DNA of 64,000 nt from Pantoea sp. (GTDB lineage Bacteria > Pseudomonadota > Gammaproteobacteria > Enterobacterales > Enterobacteriaceae): assembly GCF_028283705.1 (NCBI RefSeq), contig NZ_JAPWKD010000019.1, forward strand, positions 248,001 through 312,000, given 5' to 3'. The first letter of the stretch is position 1. Each line of letters starts with the position of its first letter. The translations under genes and the position numbers were made by a program. This document shows positions 13,808 to 29,813 of the stretch, piece after piece. The notes under the pieces were generated by a model that saw only the letters and a list, made by a program, of their open reading frames with translations, searched no databases and was not told the DNA's origin.

Positions 13808-14799
13808 GCCATGAAACCCTGGCGCTGACCGAGCTGGAAGCACTTGCCCGACGCGCGTTATGTCAGTCAGGCGTTGACCGCCAGTCGGCTGATGCCACCT
13901 GCGCCGCACTGATGGCGGCGGAACGTGCCGGAATCGCGTCACACGGTTTCGCCCGGCTGCCCTATTACCTCGACCAGCTGGAGAGCGGCAAATTGAACCC
14001 CCGCGCTGTCCCGGCGATCACGCAACGCGGCGCCGTGGTCAATGTCAATGCGGATTCCGGCCTGGCGTTTCCCGCCGTGCAGCTCGGTCTGGACCGGGGA
14101 ATGGTGCTGGCGCAGGAGTTTGGTGTGGTCGCGGTGGCTATCGGTGATTCTCACCATTTTGGTATGGCCGGTTATTACGCCGAACAGGCGGCCCGCCAGG
14201 GATTGGTGTGCATGGCGTTAAGTAACGGTCCGGCAGCAATGGCCCCCTGGGGCGGCAATGTGCCACTGTATGGCACCAACCCCATCGCTTTCGCCTCACC
14301 ACGCACCAGCGGCGAACCGCTGGTGATTGACCTCTCCCTGTCCGAAGTAGCACGCGGCAAGATCATGCTGGCGAGTCAGAAAAAGGAAGCCATCCCCACA
14401 GGCTGGGCGATCGACCGTGACGGCAATCCAACAACTGACGCTGATGCGGCACTGGCGGGCAGTATGGCCCCCGCAGGCGGTGCCAAAGGTGCGGCGCTGG
14501 CGTTGATGGTTGAATTGCTCACCGCCGGACTGACGGGCAGCCATTACGGTTTTCAGGCCAGTTCGTTCTTTAATACGGAGGGTGGCTCCCCGCATATCGC
14601 ACAGCTGCTGTTACTGCTGAATCCGGCTTTCTTTTCCGCTGGCTATGTTCAGCATACGGAAATGTTGTTCAGTGCGATGCTGACGCAGCCCCACGTGAGA
14701 TTGCCCGGGGAGCGACGCCAGGCCGCTGCGCGGCAAAATAGCGACACGCTGAGTTTGCCAGTGTCGCTGCTGGAACAACTGCGCATCAGAGCTGGTTGA
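13804..14799 (+). CDS. comC: Malate/lactate dehydrogenase-family protein, candidate (R)-sulfolactate dehydrogenase
   Basis: A 331-residue member of the Ldh2/MDH2 (YlbC, AllD, ComC) NAD(P)-dependent family. Seen: ERAGIASHGFARLPYYLDQLESG near residues 40-60 (the SHG motif), VVAVAIGDSHHFGMAGYYAEQA near 112, MAPWGGNVPLYGTNPIAFASP near 140, and GGAKGAALALMVELLTAGLTGS near 224. ComC reversibly reduces sulfopyruvate to (R)-sulfolactate and occurs in sulfolactate-racemising clusters with a partner SlcC. No SlcC is seen here, so this enzyme may link sulfopyruvate or cysteate to SuyAB. It overlaps the symporter by 4 bp and the convergent gntR by 14 bp. A generic ureidoglycolate- or malate-type activity cannot be excluded. 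Confidence 0.75.
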   Translation: MSHETLALTELEALARRALCQSGVDRQSADATCAALMAAERAGIASHGFARLPYYLDQLESGKLNPRAVPAITQRGAVVNVNADSGLAFPAVQLGLDRGMVLAQEFGVVAVAIGDSHHFGMAGYYAEQAARQGLVCMALSNGPAAMAPWGGNVPLYGTNPIAFASPRTSGEPLVIDLSLSEVARGKIMLASQKKEAIPTGWAIDRDGNPTTDADAALAGSMAPAGGAKGAALALMVELLTAGLTGSHYGFQASSFFNTEGGSPHIAQLLLLLNPAFFSAGYVQHTEMLFSAMLTQPHVRLPGERRQAAARQNSDTLSLPVSLLEQLRIRAG

Positions 14800-15532
14800 A
14801 ATAGGCATGGTGGCGGGTGAGTACAGTGGAGACACGGTACTCAACCGGCCTATCCTGAAAATCCAGCGCAACGCGGTAGATACGCAACAATGCTTCCCCT
14901 TCTGTCGCCTCAAGATGCAGGACCTCATCCGGTCCCGCATTCACCGCTTTTATCTGTTCATGGGCGTTAGCCACCGTGCAGGCAAATTTCTGCTGATACA
15001 GTTGGTACAGCGTGTTGGGCAGGATTTCCGGTTCCCGATCCAGATGGGGAAAGCGTGCGGCATCAATATAAACATGCTCGAGGATGGCAGGAGCGCCATC
15101 CAGATCGCGCACACGCCAGATATGAATCACTTTACTGCCGGGCGTAATAGCCAGCGCGGTAGCTTCTTCCTCAGAAGCGGTACGTAAATGGCGCGCCAGC
15201 ACACGTGACAACGGCAGCGAACGCTCGCCATTTGCCCTGAGAACATTGAAGAAGCGGAACAACGCGCTGTCTGAATCATGGGCCGCCACCACGGTGCCTT
15301 TGCCCTGATAACGAATCACCACATTGTTACTGACCAGTTCATTGAGCGCTTTGCGGAGTGTACCAATGCTGACGTTGTAGGTTTCCGCCAGACTCGCTTC
15401 GCTGGGAATATAGGTACCTGCGGGCCATTCGCCGGAGGCGATTCTTTCCAGCAGCAGCTGGCTGATTTGCAGATATAGCGGCTGAAAAATCGCCGCTTTC
15501 ACTTCAGCGGATGATGAGATGTCCTGATTCAT
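14786..15532 (-). CDS. GntR-family regulator (HTH + UTRA), likely regulator of the sulfonate cluster
   Basis: A 248-residue HutC-subfamily regulator. Residues 15-80 form the winged helix (IASGEWPAGTYIPSEASLAETYNVSIGTLRKALNELV), and residues 100-245 are a UTRA ligand-binding domain (VIHIWRVRDLDGAPAILEHVYID, then RPVEYRVSTVLTRHHAYF). GGAGGAAGG precedes the ATG. The gene faces comC tail-to-tail with a 14-bp overlap, and its promoter is next to the exporter gene. A partial copy of the palindromic site of hpsN and suyA lies 47-56 bp upstream, suggesting autoregulation. A repressor relieved by DHPS or sulfolactate is the natural reading, but the effector is inferred. Confidence 0.88.
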   Translation of the reverse strand: MNQDISSSAEVKAAIFQPLYLQISQLLLERIASGEWPAGTYIPSEASLAETYNVSIGTLRKALNELVSNNVVIRYQGKGTVVAAHDSDSALFRFFNVLRANGERSLPLSRVLARHLRTASEEEATALAITPGSKVIHIWRVRDLDGAPAILEHVYIDAARFPHLDREPEILPNTLYQLYQQKFACTVANAHEQIKAVNAGPDEVLHLEATEGEALLRIYRVALDFQDRPVEYRVSTVLTRHHAYFNQL

Positions 15533-15578
15533 TTACCTTCCTCCACAATCCGGCACAGCGAATGCCTGTAGGATTACT

Positions 15579-15588
15579 ATGACATATA
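15579..15588. promoter_or_regulatory. Partial GntR operator upstream of the gntR gene
   Basis: ATGACATATA at 15579-15588 is the exact reverse complement of TATATGTCAT found within the suyA operator region (10881-10890). It lies in the 263-bp divergent gap between gntR and the exporter gene, so it could serve either or both. The palindrome here is incomplete. Confidence 0.4.
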
Positions 15589-15795
15589 CAGGAGTTAGCA
15601 CCATCCTGGTGCTGTAAAAAAGTGATCGGGGAACAGAATTGGCGATCAAATTTACTATCTTGTTATTTTAATAAATTAACAAACCCGCTGCGTACGTTGA
15701 TTACCTGATATTCAGATTGGTTATAACGATATAATCAATTTTTCATTCGGCTGGAAAGGTCTCATCCTTAGTCCTGTAGAGGAGAGGAGGACAAC

Positions 15796-16854
15796 ATGGC
15801 CGAATTATCAGTAGCTCGTTATCAACAGGATCTTAAACGCTTCATTCCCGGGCTGGCACTCACGGCGGTGATTGCCTTCACCACTGCATGGCTGGGTAAC
15901 CAGCCGGTGATGTCGGGCCTGGGGCTGGGGGCGCTGACGCTGGCAATCATCGTCGGTATCGTGGTGGGGAATACCTTTTATCCCGCATTGCATCCGCAAT
16001 GTGATGAGGGTGTGCAATTTGCTAAACAGAAATTGCTGCGACTGGGGATTATCCTCTATGGCTTCCGCCTGACATTTCAGCAGGTGATGGACGTGGGATT
16101 GAGTGGCGTCATCATCGATGTGTTGATGTTAAGCAGTACTTTCATCTTTGCCAGTGTGATCGGTTCGCGGTTGCTGGGTATTGATCGCAAAACTGCCTGG
16201 TTGATTGGTGCAGGGAGCAGCATTTGTGGTGCCGCAGCGGTGTTGGCAGCCGCCCCGGTAGTAAAGGCTGAGCCTGCCAAAGTTGCCGTGGCGGTCGCTA
16301 CCGTGGTGATTTTCGGTACGCTGGGCATTTTTCTTTATCCGCTTATCTGGCATGAATTTGCGCAATATATCCCAGGCATTTCGCTGACCCAGTTTGGCAT
16401 TTATACCGGTTCCACCATGCATGAAGTGGCGCAGGTGGTTGCCGCAGGGCACGCAGTCAGCCCGGAAACCGAGAACGCCGCAGTAATCGCCAAGATGCTG
16501 CGTGTCATGATGCTGGCCCCTTTCCTGCTGCTGCTGAGTGTGTTTATCAGCCGGGATAGCGGGGAATCCCGCACGGCAAAACAACCCATTATTTTCCCCT
16601 GGTTTGCCCTGATTTTTATTCTGGTGGCGCTATTTAATTCGTTTCATTTTTTGCCCGCGCCGATGGTTGCAGGCATCAATACGCTGGATAATGTGTTACT
16701 GGCAATGGCGATGGCGGCACTCGGATTAAGCACCAGCGCACGTCAGCTGATCAATGCCGGTGCAAGACCGTTTATGTTGGGTTTAATCTTGTTTGTGTGG
16801 TTAGTATTAGGCGGTGGTGCCATCAACCTGTTGGTTCATCAATTTATGAGTTAA
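15796..16854 (+). CDS. YeiH-family (UPF0324) putative sulfite/sulfate exporter
   Basis: A 352-residue, roughly ten-helix membrane protein of the conserved hypothetical 698/UPF0324 family (E. coli YeiH), members of which accompany sulfonate-degradation genes as presumed sulfite or sulfate exporters. Seen: LGLGALTLAIIVGIVVGNTFYP near residue 38, FAKQKLLRLGIILYGFRLTFQQ near 75, WLIGAGSSICGAAAVLAAAPVVKAE near 135 and the STMHEVAQVVAAG motif near 205. GGAGG lies five bases before the ATG. It is divergent from gntR and just outside the lyase operon. SuyAB makes one sulfite per turnover, so this is the logical detoxification step. Export activity itself is inferred from family and context. Confidence 0.88.
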   Translation: MAELSVARYQQDLKRFIPGLALTAVIAFTTAWLGNQPVMSGLGLGALTLAIIVGIVVGNTFYPALHPQCDEGVQFAKQKLLRLGIILYGFRLTFQQVMDVGLSGVIIDVLMLSSTFIFASVIGSRLLGIDRKTAWLIGAGSSICGAAAVLAAAPVVKAEPAKVAVAVATVVIFGTLGIFLYPLIWHEFAQYIPGISLTQFGIYTGSTMHEVAQVVAAGHAVSPETENAAVIAKMLRVMMLAPFLLLLSVFISRDSGESRTAKQPIIFPWFALIFILVALFNSFHFLPAPMVAGINTLDNVLLAMAMAALGLSTSARQLINAGARPFMLGLILFVWLVLGGGAINLLVHQFMS

Positions 16855-16943
16855 TCGATATTCTCAGTAAAGATGATAGTTAATCACGCCATAAACATTT
16901 TCGGCCATTCCCCTCGCCTTATTCCCGGATGTTAACCAACAAC

Positions 16944-16963
16944 GCTGGCCTTAACTGGCCAGC
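16944..16963. terminator. Hairpin downstream of the exporter gene
   Basis: GCTGGCC (16944-16950) and GGCCAGC (16957-16963) form a 7-bp stem with a 6-nt loop, 90 bp after the exporter stop and 59 bp beyond the stop of the micro-ORF on the other strand. No strong T-run follows on either strand, so this is at best a weak bidirectional terminator. Confidence 0.35.
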
Positions 16964-17021
16964 ATATCTGATTGTTAAACAAAAACTAATCAGGAAGTCT
17001 CAGTCACCCTAATGCCCTTGT

Positions 17022-17114
17022 TCACCAAAAGAGTATCCATAAGAGAATGATACAAACCAGTATTATAAATGCTGCATTCAGTCCATTCTCCGGAGGTAAT
17101 CCCAAATACTCCAT
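17022..17114 (-). CDS. Putative 30-residue single-helix membrane protein
   Basis: A short reading frame inside the roughly 790-bp gap between the exporter and the next gene. The ATG at 17112-17114 is preceded by GAGG with a six-base spacer. The product is 30 residues: a polar start MEYLGLPPENGLN followed by a continuous hydrophobic run (AAFIILVCIILLWILFW) to the stop at 17022-17024. Start signal, length and one membrane helix fit the enterobacterial small-membrane-protein class. I do not recognise a named family. With only 30 codons a chance frame is possible. The rest of the gap (17115-17573) is AT-rich and holds nothing else I can identify. Confidence 0.5.
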   Translation of the reverse strand: MEYLGLPPENGLNAAFIILVCIILLWILFW

Positions 17115-17574
17115 ATGCTTCCTCATTTAAAAAATAAAAAAATCCATGCCATTACGTTATTAGTAAAACATTTTGTTTATTAGAAATAATAATTCCCAGA
17201 ACCCAAACGTTGGTCCACTTATTTCTTTATAAGTTCACCGATTTTAGTGTGCATCAGTGTAAAGTTTTCGTAAGAAAAACATCTCAATTTCGCTAATCTG
17301 GTAATCATGACTTATTTTTCTACTGAAAAGAATAGAGTTTCTTATCAATAATGAGCAACGGTAGACATATTTCTCGCAAAAGATTTGAGATAAGTTAATT
17401 TAATTAGGGCATCGGTCTACCTGACAATCGCATCCCGTCCGGCATAGAACGGCAAAGCGGTTCGCATACCTGCAATCAAACGCGAAAATTTGTGACAAGA
17501 CCCACAAAATCGGCGCTAAATCAATAGCTTTCCCTTGCCCCACTTTGTAAAAGCACGCAACGCTGGTACGATTT

Positions 17575-17618
17575 GTAATCGATTACTTTTCATATCAATC
17601 AAAAATGTAATCGATTAC
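17575..17618. promoter_or_regulatory. Twin LacI-type operators (GTAATCGATTAC) upstream of exported isomerase gene
   Basis: Two perfect 12-bp palindromes GTAATCGATTAC lie at 17575-17586 and 17607-17618, 32 bp centre to centre, ending 25 bp before the start codon of the 17644 gene. Both continue into ACTTT on the same side. The central CG dyad is typical of LacI-family operators. The same twin arrangement occurs at 23038-23080. The likely ligand is the LacI-family protein at 18496-19476. Confidence 0.8.
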
Positions 17619-17643
17619 TTTAAATTTATGGGATGGATTACTT

Positions 17644-18495
17644 ATGAAGAACACATTGACCGGAACTGCCGTTATCTCGCTTTCATTGATCATTGCCGCA
17701 AGCTGCACCGCAGCCACCACGGATTTACCGATCGCACTGCAGATGTATACGGTGCGTAACAATGGCACGCTGGAACAGCAGTTTGCGCTGGCACAACGTG
17801 CTGGCTTCCATGCTGTTGAACTGGTGAGCGATCAGGGTGTGACGGCCCATGAAATGAAACGTCTGCTCAGCAAATATCATTTGCAGCCCATTGCCGATCA
17901 TGTGCAACTGGACGATCTGGAAAATCATTCCGCCACTATCGTGGCCTTTAACAAAGCCATCGGTAATACCACGCTGGTGATGCCGTGGATCAAACCTGAC
18001 GTTCGACCGGACAGTAAGCAGAGCTGGCAACAGATGGGGCAACGCTTAGATGCCATTGGCAAAAAGTTAAAAGCCCAGGGCATGACCCTCGCTTACCATA
18101 ACCATAATTTTGAAATGAAGAAGTACGACGGTCAGACCGCGCTGGATATCCTGATGTCTTCCAGCAACCCAGAGCATCTTAAGCTTGAACTGGATGCAGC
18201 ATGGGCTTCGCGAGGCGGCCAGGATCCGGCAGTGATACTGCAACGCTATAAAGGTCGGGTGTTTGCGATCCATGCAAAAGATAACGCGCCCATCGGTATT
18301 CGCGACGATCAGATGAATTTCGCGCCAGCGGGCGAAGGGTTGCTGGCCTGGAACGAGATCATGCCAGCAGCGAAAGCCGCAGGCGTGCAATGGTATATCG
18401 TCGAGCACGATAAACCTGGCAACGAAGCGGAAGCTATCATTACCGAATCAAATAAATTCCTTCAGCAACAACTCAGCCCTGCGGGCGTGAAATAA
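17644..18495 (+). CDS. Exported sugar phosphate isomerase/epimerase-like protein (TIM barrel)
   Basis: A 283-residue protein with an N-terminal export signal (Lys near the start, hydrophobic run AVISLSLIIAASCTAA) followed by a complete AP-endonuclease-2/xylose-isomerase-like TIM barrel. Seen: LPIALQMYTVRNNGTLEQQF (strand 1), PIADHVQLDD, MTLAYHNHNFEM (metal/active-site His, Glu), LKLELDAAWASRGGQDP (Asp) and VFAIHAKDNAP. The signal has a Cys at position 21 that could be lipidated, though the box (AAS-C) is poor; cleavage by signal peptidase I after CTAA is the alternative. Most relatives are cytoplasmic; exported ones often occur with Gfo/Idh enzymes acting on keto-sugars. Twin LacI-type operators overlap its promoter, placing it in one regulon with the 19550-23023 operon. 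Confidence 0.82.
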   Translation: MKNTLTGTAVISLSLIIAASCTAATTDLPIALQMYTVRNNGTLEQQFALAQRAGFHAVELVSDQGVTAHEMKRLLSKYHLQPIADHVQLDDLENHSATIVAFNKAIGNTTLVMPWIKPDVRPDSKQSWQQMGQRLDAIGKKLKAQGMTLAYHNHNFEMKKYDGQTALDILMSSSNPEHLKLELDAAWASRGGQDPAVILQRYKGRVFAIHAKDNAPIGIRDDQMNFAPAGEGLLAWNEIMPAAKAAGVQWYIVEHDKPGNEAEAIITESNKFLQQQLSPAGVK

Positions 18496-19476
18496 TCAAC
18501 TCGATGCGCGGTGCAGGAATTCCCAGTCAAGAATGATTTTCTCCGCCGCGCTACCGGGTTCATCAATACGCCGCAGCAGCAGACGCACTGCCTGCCGGCC
18601 AATTTCCCGTGACGGTTGCAGGACCGTGCTTAATTTCGGGTAAGTCATCTCACTTAATTCCGTGCCATCGAAACCAATAACGGCGATATCGTCAGGCACC
18701 GTCAACCCGGCATCCTGGATGGCCCGCAATGCCCCGGCTGCCAGCGTATCGGAAACGGCGAACACCGCATCAGGGCGTTCGCCCTGGCTCAGCAATGCCT
18801 GCATGGCGTTTCTGCCCGCTTCATAACTGAGATCGGCGGCATATACCACCGACTGCCAGGCGCTACCCGCATCCGTCAGCGCCTGGCGATAGCCCTCTTC
18901 CCGCAGCCGGGCATATTTGTAGCTTAAATCATGGTTGATCATCGCAACGCGTTGGCATTTCCGCTGCAAAAACTGTTGCACGACATAGACAGAAGCATCG
19001 CGATCATGGATACCCACGGTGGAGACCGCAGAGGCGTCATCATACTCAGCACACTGAACCCAGGGCGCATCGCCGATTAGCGTGGTCAGCTCGGTCAGGC
19101 TGGCAAGCGCATCCATGGTGATCACGCCATCAACCATCTTGCCGGAGAGCAGCTGCAAACTGGAACGGGAACGTTCCACATCGGAACCGGAGTTGCACAG
19201 CAGGATGCGATAACCATTTTTTTCGGCTTCGGCTTCGATGCCTTTAACGACATCCGCACAAAATGGGTTGGCGATATTGGACACCATGACCAGCAGCATA
19301 CTGCTCCGGGCGGTGCGCAGCTGTCTGGCAAGTAAATTTGGCTGGTAATTGCTCTGCTCAATCGCCTCAAGGACTTTGATCCGGTTGCGCTCTTTCACGC
19401 TGCCCTGATTATTCAAAACCCGTGATACGGTTGCCACTGAAACGCCGGCCAGGCGAGCAATTTTCTGAATCGACAT
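18496..19476 (-). CDS. LacI-family transcriptional repressor
   Basis: A 326-residue regulator: N-terminal LacI helix-turn-helix with hinge (MSIQKIARLAGVSVATVSRVLNNQGSVKERNR is the family pattern) and a periplasmic-binding-like sensor domain (from about residue 60; NIANPFCADVVKGIEAEAEK, VGIHDRDASVYVVQQFL, DDIAVIGFDGTELSEMTYPKLSTV). The ATG at 19476 starts the canonical HTH; an upstream start at 19503 would add nine unusual residues. Its stop abuts the stop of the 17644 gene with no gap. It lies between two promoters that carry identical twin palindromes, which it most likely binds. The inducer would be a sugar or derivative handled by the flanking isomerases and dehydrogenase. Confidence 0.9.
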   Translation of the reverse strand: MSIQKIARLAGVSVATVSRVLNNQGSVKERNRIKVLEAIEQSNYQPNLLARQLRTARSSMLLVMVSNIANPFCADVVKGIEAEAEKNGYRILLCNSGSDVERSRSSLQLLSGKMVDGVITMDALASLTELTTLIGDAPWVQCAEYDDASAVSTVGIHDRDASVYVVQQFLQRKCQRVAMINHDLSYKYARLREEGYRQALTDAGSAWQSVVYAADLSYEAGRNAMQALLSQGERPDAVFAVSDTLAAGALRAIQDAGLTVPDDIAVIGFDGTELSEMTYPKLSTVLQPSREIGRQAVRLLLRRIDEPGSAAEKIILDWEFLHRASS

Positions 19477-19549
19477 GACGCCCACATATTCGTTAAAACA
19501 CAATTAATCGCAGGATATCATACAACTGGCCGGCTCAATCATGCCTGAT

Positions 19550-20692
19550 TTATAGCGGCGCGACTTTCACCCAACGTTGTTCGCGATGGCTTTGAATCAT
19601 GGCTTCAATCACCAGCATGATCTGTGCCCCTTCGCGGAAAGTGGCATAGCTGTCTCCCCCGGACGATCCATTGCGCACCGCGCCATAAAATCGACTGAGC
19701 ATATTTCTGAACGCATCCGGCCAGCCTTCAATATGCCCGCCCGGGAAGTGGGCACTGGCAGCCACATCACGGCTCATCAGCGACGGGTCGTCACTCAACA
19801 TCGCGTTGGGTTTGGCCCGGTATCCCAGCCACAACTGTTGTGGCACTTCCTGATCCCAGGCCACCGAGTGATCACTGCCGTTCAGTTCAAAATACAAGCG
19901 GTTTTTACGACCGGCACTCACCTGCGATACCGTCAGACTGCCACGGCTGCCATCGGCAAAACGCAACAGCACATTGGCATAGTCTTCGGTATCAATCGGC
20001 TTTTCATCGTACTCCGCCGTTCCGCTTGCGCCAAAAGTCGCCTGCTGCTGCCGTGGAGCATGACGAACCGGCCAGACGATGGCGAAGTCGGCCATCACTT
20101 CCGTAATCAGCTGCCCGGTCACAAACTGCACCGTATCACACCAGTGTGAGCCGATGTCGGCTACCGCGCGGGAAATTCCGCCAATTTTAGCATCGGTGCG
20201 CCAGTTAAAATCTGTCTGCTGCACCATCCAGTCCTGGAGATAGCTGCCATGGGTGGCAAACACCCGTCCGGTGCTGCCAGAGCGGACTAAACTGGCCGCT
20301 TGTTGTACCATGGCGAACTGTCGGTAAACGAAGCTGACGCCATTGATCACGCCTTTCTCGTTTGCCAGAGCGAGCAGCTCCCGCGCTTCAACGCTGGTCA
20401 TACACAGTGGTTTTTCAGAAAAGATATGTTTCCCGGCCAGCATTACCTGGCGGTTAATGCTGGCATGCAGATGGTTCGGGGTGCAGTTATGAACTACCTG
20501 CAATCCCGGGTGTTCCAACAATTTAGCCACATCGGCATAGGCAAAAGGGATGTTCAGTTGCTGTGCTTTTTTCTGTGCCTCTTCCAGAGAAGCATCACAA
20601 ATCGCCACAACGTCCACATCGCCAAGCCGACGGATGGCTTCCAGGTGCGCGGGCCCAATAAAACCGGCCCCGATAATGGCGGCTTTAATCAT
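19550..20692 (-). CDS. Gfo/Idh/MocA-family NAD(P)-dependent sugar dehydrogenase
   Basis: A 380-residue two-domain oxidoreductase. The N-terminal Rossmann fold starts IKAAIIGAGFIGPAHLEAIRRLG. Also seen: VVHNCTPNHLHASINRQVMLAGKHIFSEKPLC (the EKP motif, Lys near residue 95) and, in the C-terminal alpha/beta domain, DFNWRTDAKIGGISRAVADIGSHWCDTVQF with the DxGxHxxD active-site pattern. The start at 20692 overlaps the stop of the TIM-barrel gene by 8 bp and has GGGAG upstream; longer frames lack a site. The family oxidises or reduces a ring hydroxyl of sugars, inositols or glycosides. Paired with a TIM-barrel protein and an MFS transporter it probably acts on a keto-sugar; the substrate is unknown. 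Confidence 0.87.
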   Translation of the reverse strand: MIKAAIIGAGFIGPAHLEAIRRLGDVDVVAICDASLEEAQKKAQQLNIPFAYADVAKLLEHPGLQVVHNCTPNHLHASINRQVMLAGKHIFSEKPLCMTSVEARELLALANEKGVINGVSFVYRQFAMVQQAASLVRSGSTGRVFATHGSYLQDWMVQQTDFNWRTDAKIGGISRAVADIGSHWCDTVQFVTGQLITEVMADFAIVWPVRHAPRQQQATFGASGTAEYDEKPIDTEDYANVLLRFADGSRGSLTVSQVSAGRKNRLYFELNGSDHSVAWDQEVPQQLWLGYRAKPNAMLSDDPSLMSRDVAASAHFPGGHIEGWPDAFRNMLSRFYGAVRNGSSGGDSYATFREGAQIMLVIEAMIQSHREQRWVKVAPL

Positions 20693-21758
20693 GTGTGGCA
20701 TCTCCCGCCATTCCCAGCATGGCTTTAATTTCTGCCCGATCCGAGGCAGTCTCAGCAAAATCATCAAAGGCGCGGTCCGCCACCGGGATGATGTTACGTT
20801 TAATAAACTCAGCCCCTTCTCTGGCACCGGTTTCGCTATCTTTCAGGCAACACTCCCATTCCAGCACCGCCCAGCCTGCATAATCGTATTGCGCCAGTTT
20901 GCTGAAAATCCCGGCAAAATTGATTTGCCCGTCACCCGGTGAACGGAACCGTCCGGCTCTTTCCAGCCACGGTTGATAACCACCATAGACACCACTTCGG
21001 GCTGAGGGAGTAAACTCGGCGTCCTTAACGTGGAAGGCACGAATATGTTGATGATAAATATCGATAAAGCCAAGATAATCCATATGTTGCAGCAGCATAT
21101 GGCTGGGATCATAAAGGATATGGCAGCGCGGATGATTGTTCACCGCATCGAGGAAACGTTCGAAGCTGACGCCATCATGTAAATCTTCGGAGGGATGCAA
21201 TTCGTAGCACAGGTCTACGCCCTGTTCGTCAAACACATTGAGGATCGGCTGCCAGCGACGCGCCAGTTCCGTAAAAGCCTCGTCAATCAACGCAGCTTTC
21301 CTGGGAGGCCACGGATAAAAATAGGGCCATGCCAGCGAACCCGAGAAGGTAGCATGCGCATGTAATCCCAGCTTCGCTGACGCGACGGCGGCGCGTTTAA
21401 CCTGAGCCATCGCCCATTGCTGGCGTGCGCTATCGTTTTGACGCAGTTCCACCGGACCAAAATCACTGAATGCCTGCTGATACGCCGGATGCACCGCAAC
21501 TAACTGCCCTTCAAGATGCGTTGACAGCTCGCTAATCACCAAACCATGCTGCGCCAGGATACCCTTCACCTCATCACAATAAACCTGGCTTTCTGCGGCT
21601 GTGGCTAAATCAAAGATTGCCGGGTGGTTACAGGGAATCTGCACTGCCCTGAAACCCAGGCTGGCGGCCCATTCCGCCAGACCCTGCAGGGAGTTAAAAG
21701 GTGGCTGGTCTCTTATAAACTGGGAAAGGAATACGCCAGGCCCTTTTAATGTTTTCAT
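20685..21758 (-). CDS. Sugar phosphate isomerase/epimerase-like TIM-barrel protein (paralogue of 28761-29813)
   Basis: A 357-residue cytoplasmic TIM barrel of the AP-endonuclease-2 type. Metal-binding residues typical of the family are visible: Glu in DLCYELHPSEDLHDG (about 175), Asp/His in ILYDPSHMLLQ (about 208), His/Asp in RAFHVKDAEF (about 235) and Glu in WAVLEWECCLKD (about 295). GAGAGGTG precedes the start. By eye it is well over half identical to the 28761-29813 protein along its length, including the MKT(L/I)KGPGVFL start and the GRFRSPGDGQ segment. Relatives include inosose isomerases and the keto-glycoside epimerase YcjR. It is operonic with the Gfo/Idh gene (overlap) and the MFS gene (14 bp). 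Confidence 0.85.
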   Translation of the reverse strand: MKTLKGPGVFLSQFIRDQPPFNSLQGLAEWAASLGFRAVQIPCNHPAIFDLATAAESQVYCDEVKGILAQHGLVISELSTHLEGQLVAVHPAYQQAFSDFGPVELRQNDSARQQWAMAQVKRAAVASAKLGLHAHATFSGSLAWPYFYPWPPRKAALIDEAFTELARRWQPILNVFDEQGVDLCYELHPSEDLHDGVSFERFLDAVNNHPRCHILYDPSHMLLQHMDYLGFIDIYHQHIRAFHVKDAEFTPSARSGVYGGYQPWLERAGRFRSPGDGQINFAGIFSKLAQYDYAGWAVLEWECCLKDSETGAREGAEFIKRNIIPVADRAFDDFAETASDRAEIKAMLGMAGDATHD

Positions 21759-21772
21759 CATCACCTCTCAGG

Positions 21773-28760: not shown

Positions 28761-29813
28761 TTAAATGCCGAGGATTTTTTTATTCAGGGACTGATCTGCA
28801 TAGGATTTGCAGAAGTCATCAAAGGACTTGTCGGTGACGCGGATAATGTGTTCATCAATAAACTTCGCCCCTTCCCGCGCGCCATCTTCCGGGTTTTTGA
28901 AGCAGCACTCCCACTCAAGCACCGCCCAGCCATCAAAGTCATAGCCGGTGAGTTTTGAGAAGATGCCTGCAAAATCGGTCTGACCGTCGCCCGGCGATCG
29001 GAAGCGTCCGGCGCGGCTGGTCCACGGCTGGTAACCACCGTAGGCCCCGGTTTTGCCACTCGGGCGGAATTCCGCATCCTTAACGTGAAAGGCTTTGATA
29101 CGTTCGTGGTAGTGGTCGATGTAAGTGAGGTAATCGATCCCCTGCAACACCAGATGACTCGGGTCGTACATGATGTTGCAACGCGTATGATTGCCGGTTT
29201 TCTCCAGGAAACGCTCAAATGTCAGGCCATCATGCAGATCTTCCGTCGGGTGAATTTCGTAGCACAGGTCAATGCCCTGTTCATCGAAGGCATTAAGGAT
29301 CGGCATCCAGCGGCGCGCCAGCTCACTGAAGCCTTCTTCAATCAACCCTTCCGGCCACTGGGGATAGGGATAGAGGTAAGGCCACAACAGGGTGCCAGAG
29401 AAGGTAACGTGTTTGGTTAGACCAAAACGGCGTGAGGCTTTCGCAGCCAGATACAGCTGCTCAGTCGCCCATTGCTGCCGTTCCTGTGGATTGTTGCGCA
29501 GTGCTTGCGGCGCAAAGCTATCGGCAGGCAGATCGAATGCCGGATGCAGTGCCACCAGCTGCCCCTGGAGATGGCTGGCCAAATCCGTCAGGGTTAAGCC
29601 GTGTTCGCTTAATACTCCCAGTATCTCATCAACATAGGTCTGGCTTTCAGCCGCCTTGCGCAGGTCAATCAGGCGGGTGTCCCAGCTCGGAATCTCGACG
29701 CCTTTAAATCCTTTTTCTGCGGCCCATGCAGCCATCCCCGCCAGCGTATTAAAAGGCGTACTGTCTCCGGCAAACTGCGCCAGAAAAACGCCAGGACCCT
29801 TAATTGTTTTCAT
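28761..29813 (-). CDS. Sugar phosphate isomerase/epimerase-like TIM-barrel protein
   Basis: A 350-residue TIM barrel closely related to the 20685-21758 product. Metal ligands: Glu in DLCYEIHPTEDLHDG, Asp/His in IMYDPSHLVLQG, His/Asp in KAFHVKDAEF and Glu in WAVLEWECCF. GGAG precedes the ATG at 29813; an upstream frame to 29840 runs into the terminator. It is followed 10 bp later by a Gfo/Idh gene and preceded by a sugar-binding protein gene with a terminator in between. The pair probably interconverts a keto-sugar or inosose with its epimer. MocC, IolE and YcjR are family reference points; none is clearly closest by eye. Confidence 0.85.
   Translation of the reverse strand: MKTIKGPGVFLAQFAGDSTPFNTLAGMAAWAAEKGFKGVEIPSWDTRLIDLRKAAESQTYVDEILGVLSEHGLTLTDLASHLQGQLVALHPAFDLPADSFAPQALRNNPQERQQWATEQLYLAAKASRRFGLTKHVTFSGTLLWPYLYPYPQWPEGLIEEGFSELARRWMPILNAFDEQGIDLCYEIHPTEDLHDGLTFERFLEKTGNHTRCNIMYDPSHLVLQGIDYLTYIDHYHERIKAFHVKDAEFRPSGKTGAYGGYQPWTSRAGRFRSPGDGQTDFAGIFSKLTGYDFDGWAVLEWECCFKNPEDGAREGAKFIDEHIIRVTDKSFDDFCKSYADQSLNKKILGI

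Follow-up and report, generated by a model that had tools for sequence, protein, structure and literature searches.

Does the 789-base gap between yeiH and a TIM-barrel isomerase-like gene contain an overlooked gene? The initial annotation of this locus, which lies in a 64-kb window (the whole stretch of DNA that was analyzed), had proposed a membrane micro-ORF here, in a large intergenic gap and on the strand opposite to both neighbors, with GAGG-N6-ATG followed by 30 codons that encode a polar start and then a hydrophobic run to the stop. Each of these features was confirmed in the sequence (Table 1). On the minus strand, the ATG start codon occupies positions 17114 to 17112 and the TGA stop codon occupies positions 17024 to 17022. 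Judging from the comparison of related genomes described below, the micro-ORF very probably represents a genuine gene confined to one lineage, and its interpretation as a small bitopic membrane protein that had been overlooked is supported by conservation, synonymous bias, and the absence of indels among the copies.

Table 1. Features of the micro-ORF locus, in window coordinates.
Feature	Positions	Strand	Basis or remark
yeiH, YeiH-family transporter	15796-16854	+	TIGR00698, E = 4.9e-122
Terminator-like hairpin GCTGGCC-N6-GGCCAGC, between convergent yeiH and micro-ORF	16942-16965	-	Stem kept in 3/3 genomes; T run poor
Micro-ORF, 30 codons plus TGA, product MEYLGLPPENGLNAAFIILVCIILLWILFW	17022-17114	-	Kept in G048 and G006; frame-specific constraint
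MRKH extension from in-frame upstream ATG	17115-17126	-	Rejected as start; lacks a Shine-Dalgarno sequence and varies in G048
GAGG, Shine-Dalgarno-like, 6 bases 5′ of ATG	17121-17124	-	Identical across three genomes
Conserved upstream block, candidate promoter and 5′ UTR	17127-17296	-	Identity profile; BLAST match to G006
TATAAA in invariant stretch, possible -10 element	17226-17231	-	Candidate; no consensus -35; not picked up in the promoter scan
GTAAAGTTTTCGTAAG, CpxR-like direct repeat GTAAA-N6-GTAAG	17259-17274	+	Both half sites kept in 3/3 genomes
TIM-barrel isomerase-like gene	17644-18495	+	PF01261

Start site and chance expectation

Counted from an earlier ATG at 17126, the open frame has 34 codons. 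This upstream ATG has no Shine-Dalgarno (SD) sequence of its own and overlaps that of the inner ATG, and the longer start was rejected. Because the sole amino acid difference between the window's own genome (G000) and the related genome G048, His4Tyr in the 34-residue numbering, falls inside the four extra codons, 30 residues appears to be the better choice. The micro-ORF thus has its own start signal and falls under the 50 codons by which small membrane proteins are delimited here.

The 30 residues of the product include two Glu but neither Lys nor Arg. Its first half is polar, the hydrophobic run extends from there to the stop, and the highest 17-residue Kyte-Doolittle mean is 3.05. Dinucleotide shuffling of the 789-base gap, repeated 400 times, never produced an SD-preceded ORF of 20 to 50 amino acids with equal hydrophobicity, and it produced one reaching 2.5 in a single shuffle. 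Across the 64-kb window, where a slightly narrower set of SD sequences was used than in the shuffles, two such ORFs reach 2.5. The second is inside a larger ORF, leaving the micro-ORF as the only intergenic one (genes being the retained ORFs of at least 200 codons).

Distribution of the micro-ORF

The micro-ORF was found in 3/61 genomes searched within the genus: G000, G048 (E = 2.4e-18), and G006 (E = 6e-16). The translated search reported 22/61 genomes at E values up to 10. The 19 genomes with matches only above 0.5 were left uncounted, and these weak matches, mostly within frames of more than 400 codons, were rejected. yeiH was matched in 58 of the 61 genomes, and the carriers of the micro-ORF are exactly the three in which the best yeiH match is 88 to 100% identical, compared with 66 to 73% in the other 55; G006 also has a second yeiH copy at 67%. 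At the DNA level, the conserved island from 17018 to 17296, all of which is covered by the BLAST match to G006, was matched at length only in the same three of the 61 genomes. Another 40 of the 43 genomes reported at E values up to 1 match over ∼17 to 41 bases, with E values of 0.005 or worse and many of the matches in one T-rich stretch. The micro-ORF is single copy in its own genome, where its contig is part of a 6.24-Mb assembly of 34 contigs.

The searches of the family and the order covered samples of larger groups. Among 295 genomes of the family (E up to 0.01), the micro-ORF was found only in the window's own genome, and among 394 genomes of the order (E up to 0.05), no relative was found outside long frames; two matches there (E = 0.027 and 0.046) lie inside frames of 475 and 485 codons and were taken as chance. 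A tblastn search of plasmids and phages with the protein returned no matches at E values up to 10, and the island DNA had none in Escherichia coli genomes and phages. A degenerate pattern, PPENGLxAAF, matched at least nine genome contigs and one viral contig; to judge by the record titles, none of the nine genome contigs listed is enterobacterial, and none is from the window's genus. In a local tblastn comparison with these ten loci, the best matches had 48 to 90% identity over 10 to 25 residues, with E values of 1e-4 to 0.2 that refer to this small set. They were rejected as homologs, since identity of this kind is what the pattern itself selects for. The viral match is antisense to a 135-amino-acid phage ORF (L042:2656-3063), whose start, MLKAAFSPFSGG, resembles the plus-strand frame of the micro-ORF (NAAFSPFSGG), and was likewise taken as chance. 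As far as these searches indicate, the micro-ORF is without a convincing relative in the family, order, plasmid, phage, and E. coli sequences covered.

Coding constraint

The ORF, SD sequence, and stop codon are intact at the syntenic locus in all three genomes, and the frameshifts or stops that the initial annotation had named as grounds for refutation were absent, as were indels. Relative to G000, the product is 100% identical over its 30 residues in G048 and 80% identical in G006. The 30 codons of G000 and G048 differ at four positions, all four synonymous (P = 0.002 to 0.005), and those of G000 and G006 differ at 15, with six amino acid changes; P values for single pairs with G000 range from 0.002 to 0.007. 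On a three-branch tree, 18 substitutions produced six amino acid changes, all along the G006 branch, against a neutral expectation of ∼12.6 at a kappa of 2 (P = 1e-4). Between kappa 1 and kappa 3, the expectation varies from 12.4 to 13.0, and P is 5e-5 and 5.5e-4, respectively. The null model simulates neutral substitution along a star tree of three branches, takes the majority state as ancestral, and ignores selection on RNA, and the test draws on three close relatives (flanking genes 91 to 95% identical by BLAST) and 18 substitutions. The six changes in G006 are Y/F, L/F, V/I, I/L, G/S, and N/H, of which we read the first four as mild. The synonymous bias that the initial annotation had predicted is therefore present and specific to one frame, and it shows, within the limits of this comparison, a protein that is itself apparently under selection in this lineage.

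An open frame alone is not evidence of coding, because in each of the three genomes two other frames are likewise free of stops across the overlap. One of them belongs to a 27-codon plus-strand ORF at 17047 to 17130 (MIQTSIINAAFSPFSGGNPKYSICFLI), which has no stop over the overlap in any of the three and could in principle be the coding sequence. Its frame accumulated nine amino acid changes, however, compared with six in the minus-strand frame (the five other frames range from 9 to 16), a good SD sequence is absent by eye, and it does not belong to the set of hydrophobic SD-preceded ORFs; we consider it extremely unlikely that the coding strand is the plus strand. It is also highly improbable that the micro-ORF arose by chance in an AT-rich spacer. 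The narrow distribution and the composition of the gap (38% G+C, versus 53% for the window) would fit such an origin, but neither the shuffles, none of which matched its hydrophobicity, nor the coding constraint at P ∼1e-4 would be expected from it.

Conserved upstream block, putative terminator, and RNA structure

The initial annotation had held that the ORF should be more conserved than the surrounding noncoding DNA, and this was borne out only in part. Between G000 and G006, identity is 86% at the end of yeiH, 57% in the spacer between yeiH and the ORF, and 83% in the ORF. The 165 alignment columns upstream of the ORF are 86% identical (92% for G048), and the DNA beyond them is 60% identical (67% for G048). 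The ORF thus exceeds the 3′ DNA and the more distant upstream DNA, but not the adjoining 165 bases. This block equals the ORF in conservation, so that the DNA or RNA, and with it regulation, is constrained as well as the protein. Identity falls directly after TGAACAA and returns at the hairpin common to the three genomes. Judged by position and conservation, the 165-base stretch is best read as the putative promoter and 5′ UTR of the micro-ORF, and the conserved unit as a whole apparently has, on the same basis, the layout of a gene, with upstream regulation and a leader followed by the SD sequence, the ORF, the stop, a freely varying spacer, and a terminator.

The hairpin was the only terminator-like site in the stretch, where 0.5 is expected in shuffles. 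A weak scan of the minus strand from 16800 to 17700 for the sigma-70 consensus returned no promoter-like site. The direct repeat in the upstream block, which we take to resemble a CpxR site, is the sole match to its pattern in the window, compared with an expected 0.07 for a pattern picked after the site had been seen; sites resembling those of sigma-E, Fur, PhoP, and FNR were inspected visually and not retained. None of the repeats in the 789-base gap had a bearing on the micro-ORF. Over the upstream block, G006 has a 60-codon plus-strand frame with a hydrophobic stretch of 2.4, which was rejected because it is not conserved, being 22 codons long in G000 and starting with ATA in G048.

Conservation of the upstream block to the same degree as the ORF would also be expected if the conserved element were an RNA, whether a small RNA or a regulatory region, with an ORF incidental to it. 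The region from 16940 to 17240 folds better than 100/100 shuffles (z = -2.9), consistent with such an element. However, the z values for the leader plus ORF (193 nt, hairpin excluded) are -0.8, 0.3, and 0.4 across the three genomes, no better than shuffles, and the ORF fold in G006 is unlike that in the other two. The signal therefore seems to originate 3′ of the ORF, in the part that carries the terminator-like hairpin, and there is no sign of structured RNA outside that part, which lowers the odds of the RNA alternative. The search of Rfam gave no family at the gathering score and otherwise only E values above 1. Together with the synonymous bias in one frame, the lack of indels and stops, and the break in conservation at the stop codon, these results make an RNA with an incidental ORF very unlikely, and a protein-coding gene remains our preferred reading.

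Flanking genes and other features of the window

yeiH adjoins the micro-ORF in all three genomes. Since the flanking genes there are 91 to 95% identical, this shared neighborhood says little, and a coordinated function with yeiH was not retained as a candidate. At the five next-closest yeiH loci (L056 to L060), no SD-preceded ORF of 20 to 50 residues reaches a hydrophobicity of at least 2.5, and the only hydrophobic small ORF at L003 to L008 is one at 2.0 inside a larger ORF. The closest named plasmid yeiH, from Pantoea piersonii, is 70% identical. On the other side of the gap, G048 and G006 lack the isomerase-like gene and most of an oxidoreductase gene at their syntenic loci (17404 to 18467 and 19546 to 20653, by the G048 limits), and the presence of the island therefore does not depend on the isomerase-like gene. 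G006 retains a 51-base remnant of that gene (17964 to 18014), pointing to a probable loss there rather than a gain in G000.

Other features were observed elsewhere in the window. Two identical copies of TGTAATCGATTACTTT, 32 bases apart on the plus strand (17574 to 17589 and 17606 to 17621), precede the isomerase-like gene and are probably operators of the LacI-family regulator encoded at 18496 to 19503; the 54-base stretch over them (17571 to 17624) is 89% identical on plasmids of Pantoea eucrina and Acinetobacter venetianus. The gene at 28761 to 29840 matches, over 28789 to 29346, the G048 and G006 copies of the gene at 20685 to 21764 with ∼69 to 70% DNA identity, suggesting that the two may be paralogs. 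A 23-codon hydrophobic ORF on the minus strand, MVLTPVYVIVILQAFAVPDCGGR (15533 to 15604), ends just before the ATG of a GntR-family regulator (14786 to 15532), is nearly unchanged in G048, and is possibly a leader peptide.

Predicted product and proposed role

Hydrophobicity and structure prediction agree on one helix of membrane-spanning length. AlphaFold2 placed a helix over residues 8 to 29, with mean pLDDT values of 58, 89, and 95 for residues 1 to 10, 11 to 20, and 21 to 30, a weak line of evidence given an input of three sequences and a simple fold. The product had no match to Pfam or NCBIfam profiles at E values up to 10, none among solved structures searched by sequence, and two insignificant matches in PHROGs (E = 0.16 and 1.6), both to families of unknown function.

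On balance, we favor as probable a gene that stands alone, is restricted to this lineage, and encodes a single-pass inner-membrane protein of 30 residues, which likely modulates a larger membrane protein. We infer its transcription, translation, membrane location, topology, and partner as follows. Transcription would start at a promoter within the conserved block, at approximately 17200 to 17296, and proceed leftward, and the ribosome would initiate via GAGG at the ATG at 17114. The protein would consist of a polar, Glu-containing head (residues 1 to 12) and a hydrophobic helix that continues to the C terminus. Because the product lacks Lys and Arg but has two Glu, the N terminus is probably periplasmic and the C terminus cytoplasmic. 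The helix may then pack against a larger inner-membrane protein, such as a transporter, sensor, or oxidase, and, under a particular condition, change how stable or active that protein is. A role as such a modulator is most likely by analogy, as it follows from the behavior of the class of small membrane proteins.

Size and a single hydrophobic helix would equally fit a type I toxin, a membrane-damaging peptide silenced by an antisense RNA over the conserved 5′ UTR, and the conserved upstream block of ∼165 bases could accommodate such an arrangement. Typical pore-forming toxins carry Lys or Arg, however, and the micro-ORF product has neither. The gene is single copy, a weak consensus scan of the island found no promoter-like site for an antisense RNA, and conservation ends at ∼17296, which leaves little space for a divergent RNA gene. 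As neither the fold of the leader plus ORF nor the Rfam search favors it either, we regard a toxin as rather unlikely.

The restriction to three genomes marks the micro-ORF as a candidate for work on the origin of very small membrane proteins. It may be a young gene of one small clade that emerged de novo from the AT-rich spacer as a thymine-rich membrane helix and is already subject to purifying selection, with a regulated promoter of its own, perhaps one responding to envelope stress through CpxR; we give this history a low probability. A study of de novo emerging sequences in yeast is, by its title, also concerned with membrane proteins from thymine-rich DNA (PMC7005711). The micro-ORF adds to a class that gene callers tend to miss a well-supported gene whose start is defined and which has a conserved region upstream and a probable terminator. 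We know of no long-standing question that hangs on it.

Comparison with known small membrane proteins

KdpF, CydX, AcrZ, and MgtS are small proteins that regulate membrane complexes or serve them as accessory subunits, and several of them are encoded or regulated together with their partner. The micro-ORF product resembles them in size and in its single helix, and it too would bind a larger membrane protein. In contrast to those linked to a partner, its gene stands alone and is convergent with yeiH; the product matches no Pfam or NCBIfam profile.

Most E. coli type I toxins have 18 to 51 residues and are mainly small hydrophobic membrane proteins (PMC7667032). The micro-ORF product shares this description with them and with TimP of Salmonella. 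It differs from them in having no positive charge and from TimP in that TimP carries its hydrophobic part at the N terminus and not the C terminus (PMC7667032); neither the weak promoter scan nor Rfam gave a sign of an antisense RNA.

Close parallels, in description rather than by sequence comparison, are found among the small membrane proteins of E. coli with a single transmembrane helix, for example YohP. YohP is a protein of 27 residues with a single transmembrane helix flanked by lysines and a mostly N-out/C-in orientation (PMC7549839). The micro-ORF product has no such lysines and, unlike YohP, was found here in three genomes of one genus and matches no family profile. The two are nevertheless alike in length, in one hydrophobic helix that makes up most of the protein, in having a short gene of their own, and in a probable N-out/C-in topology.
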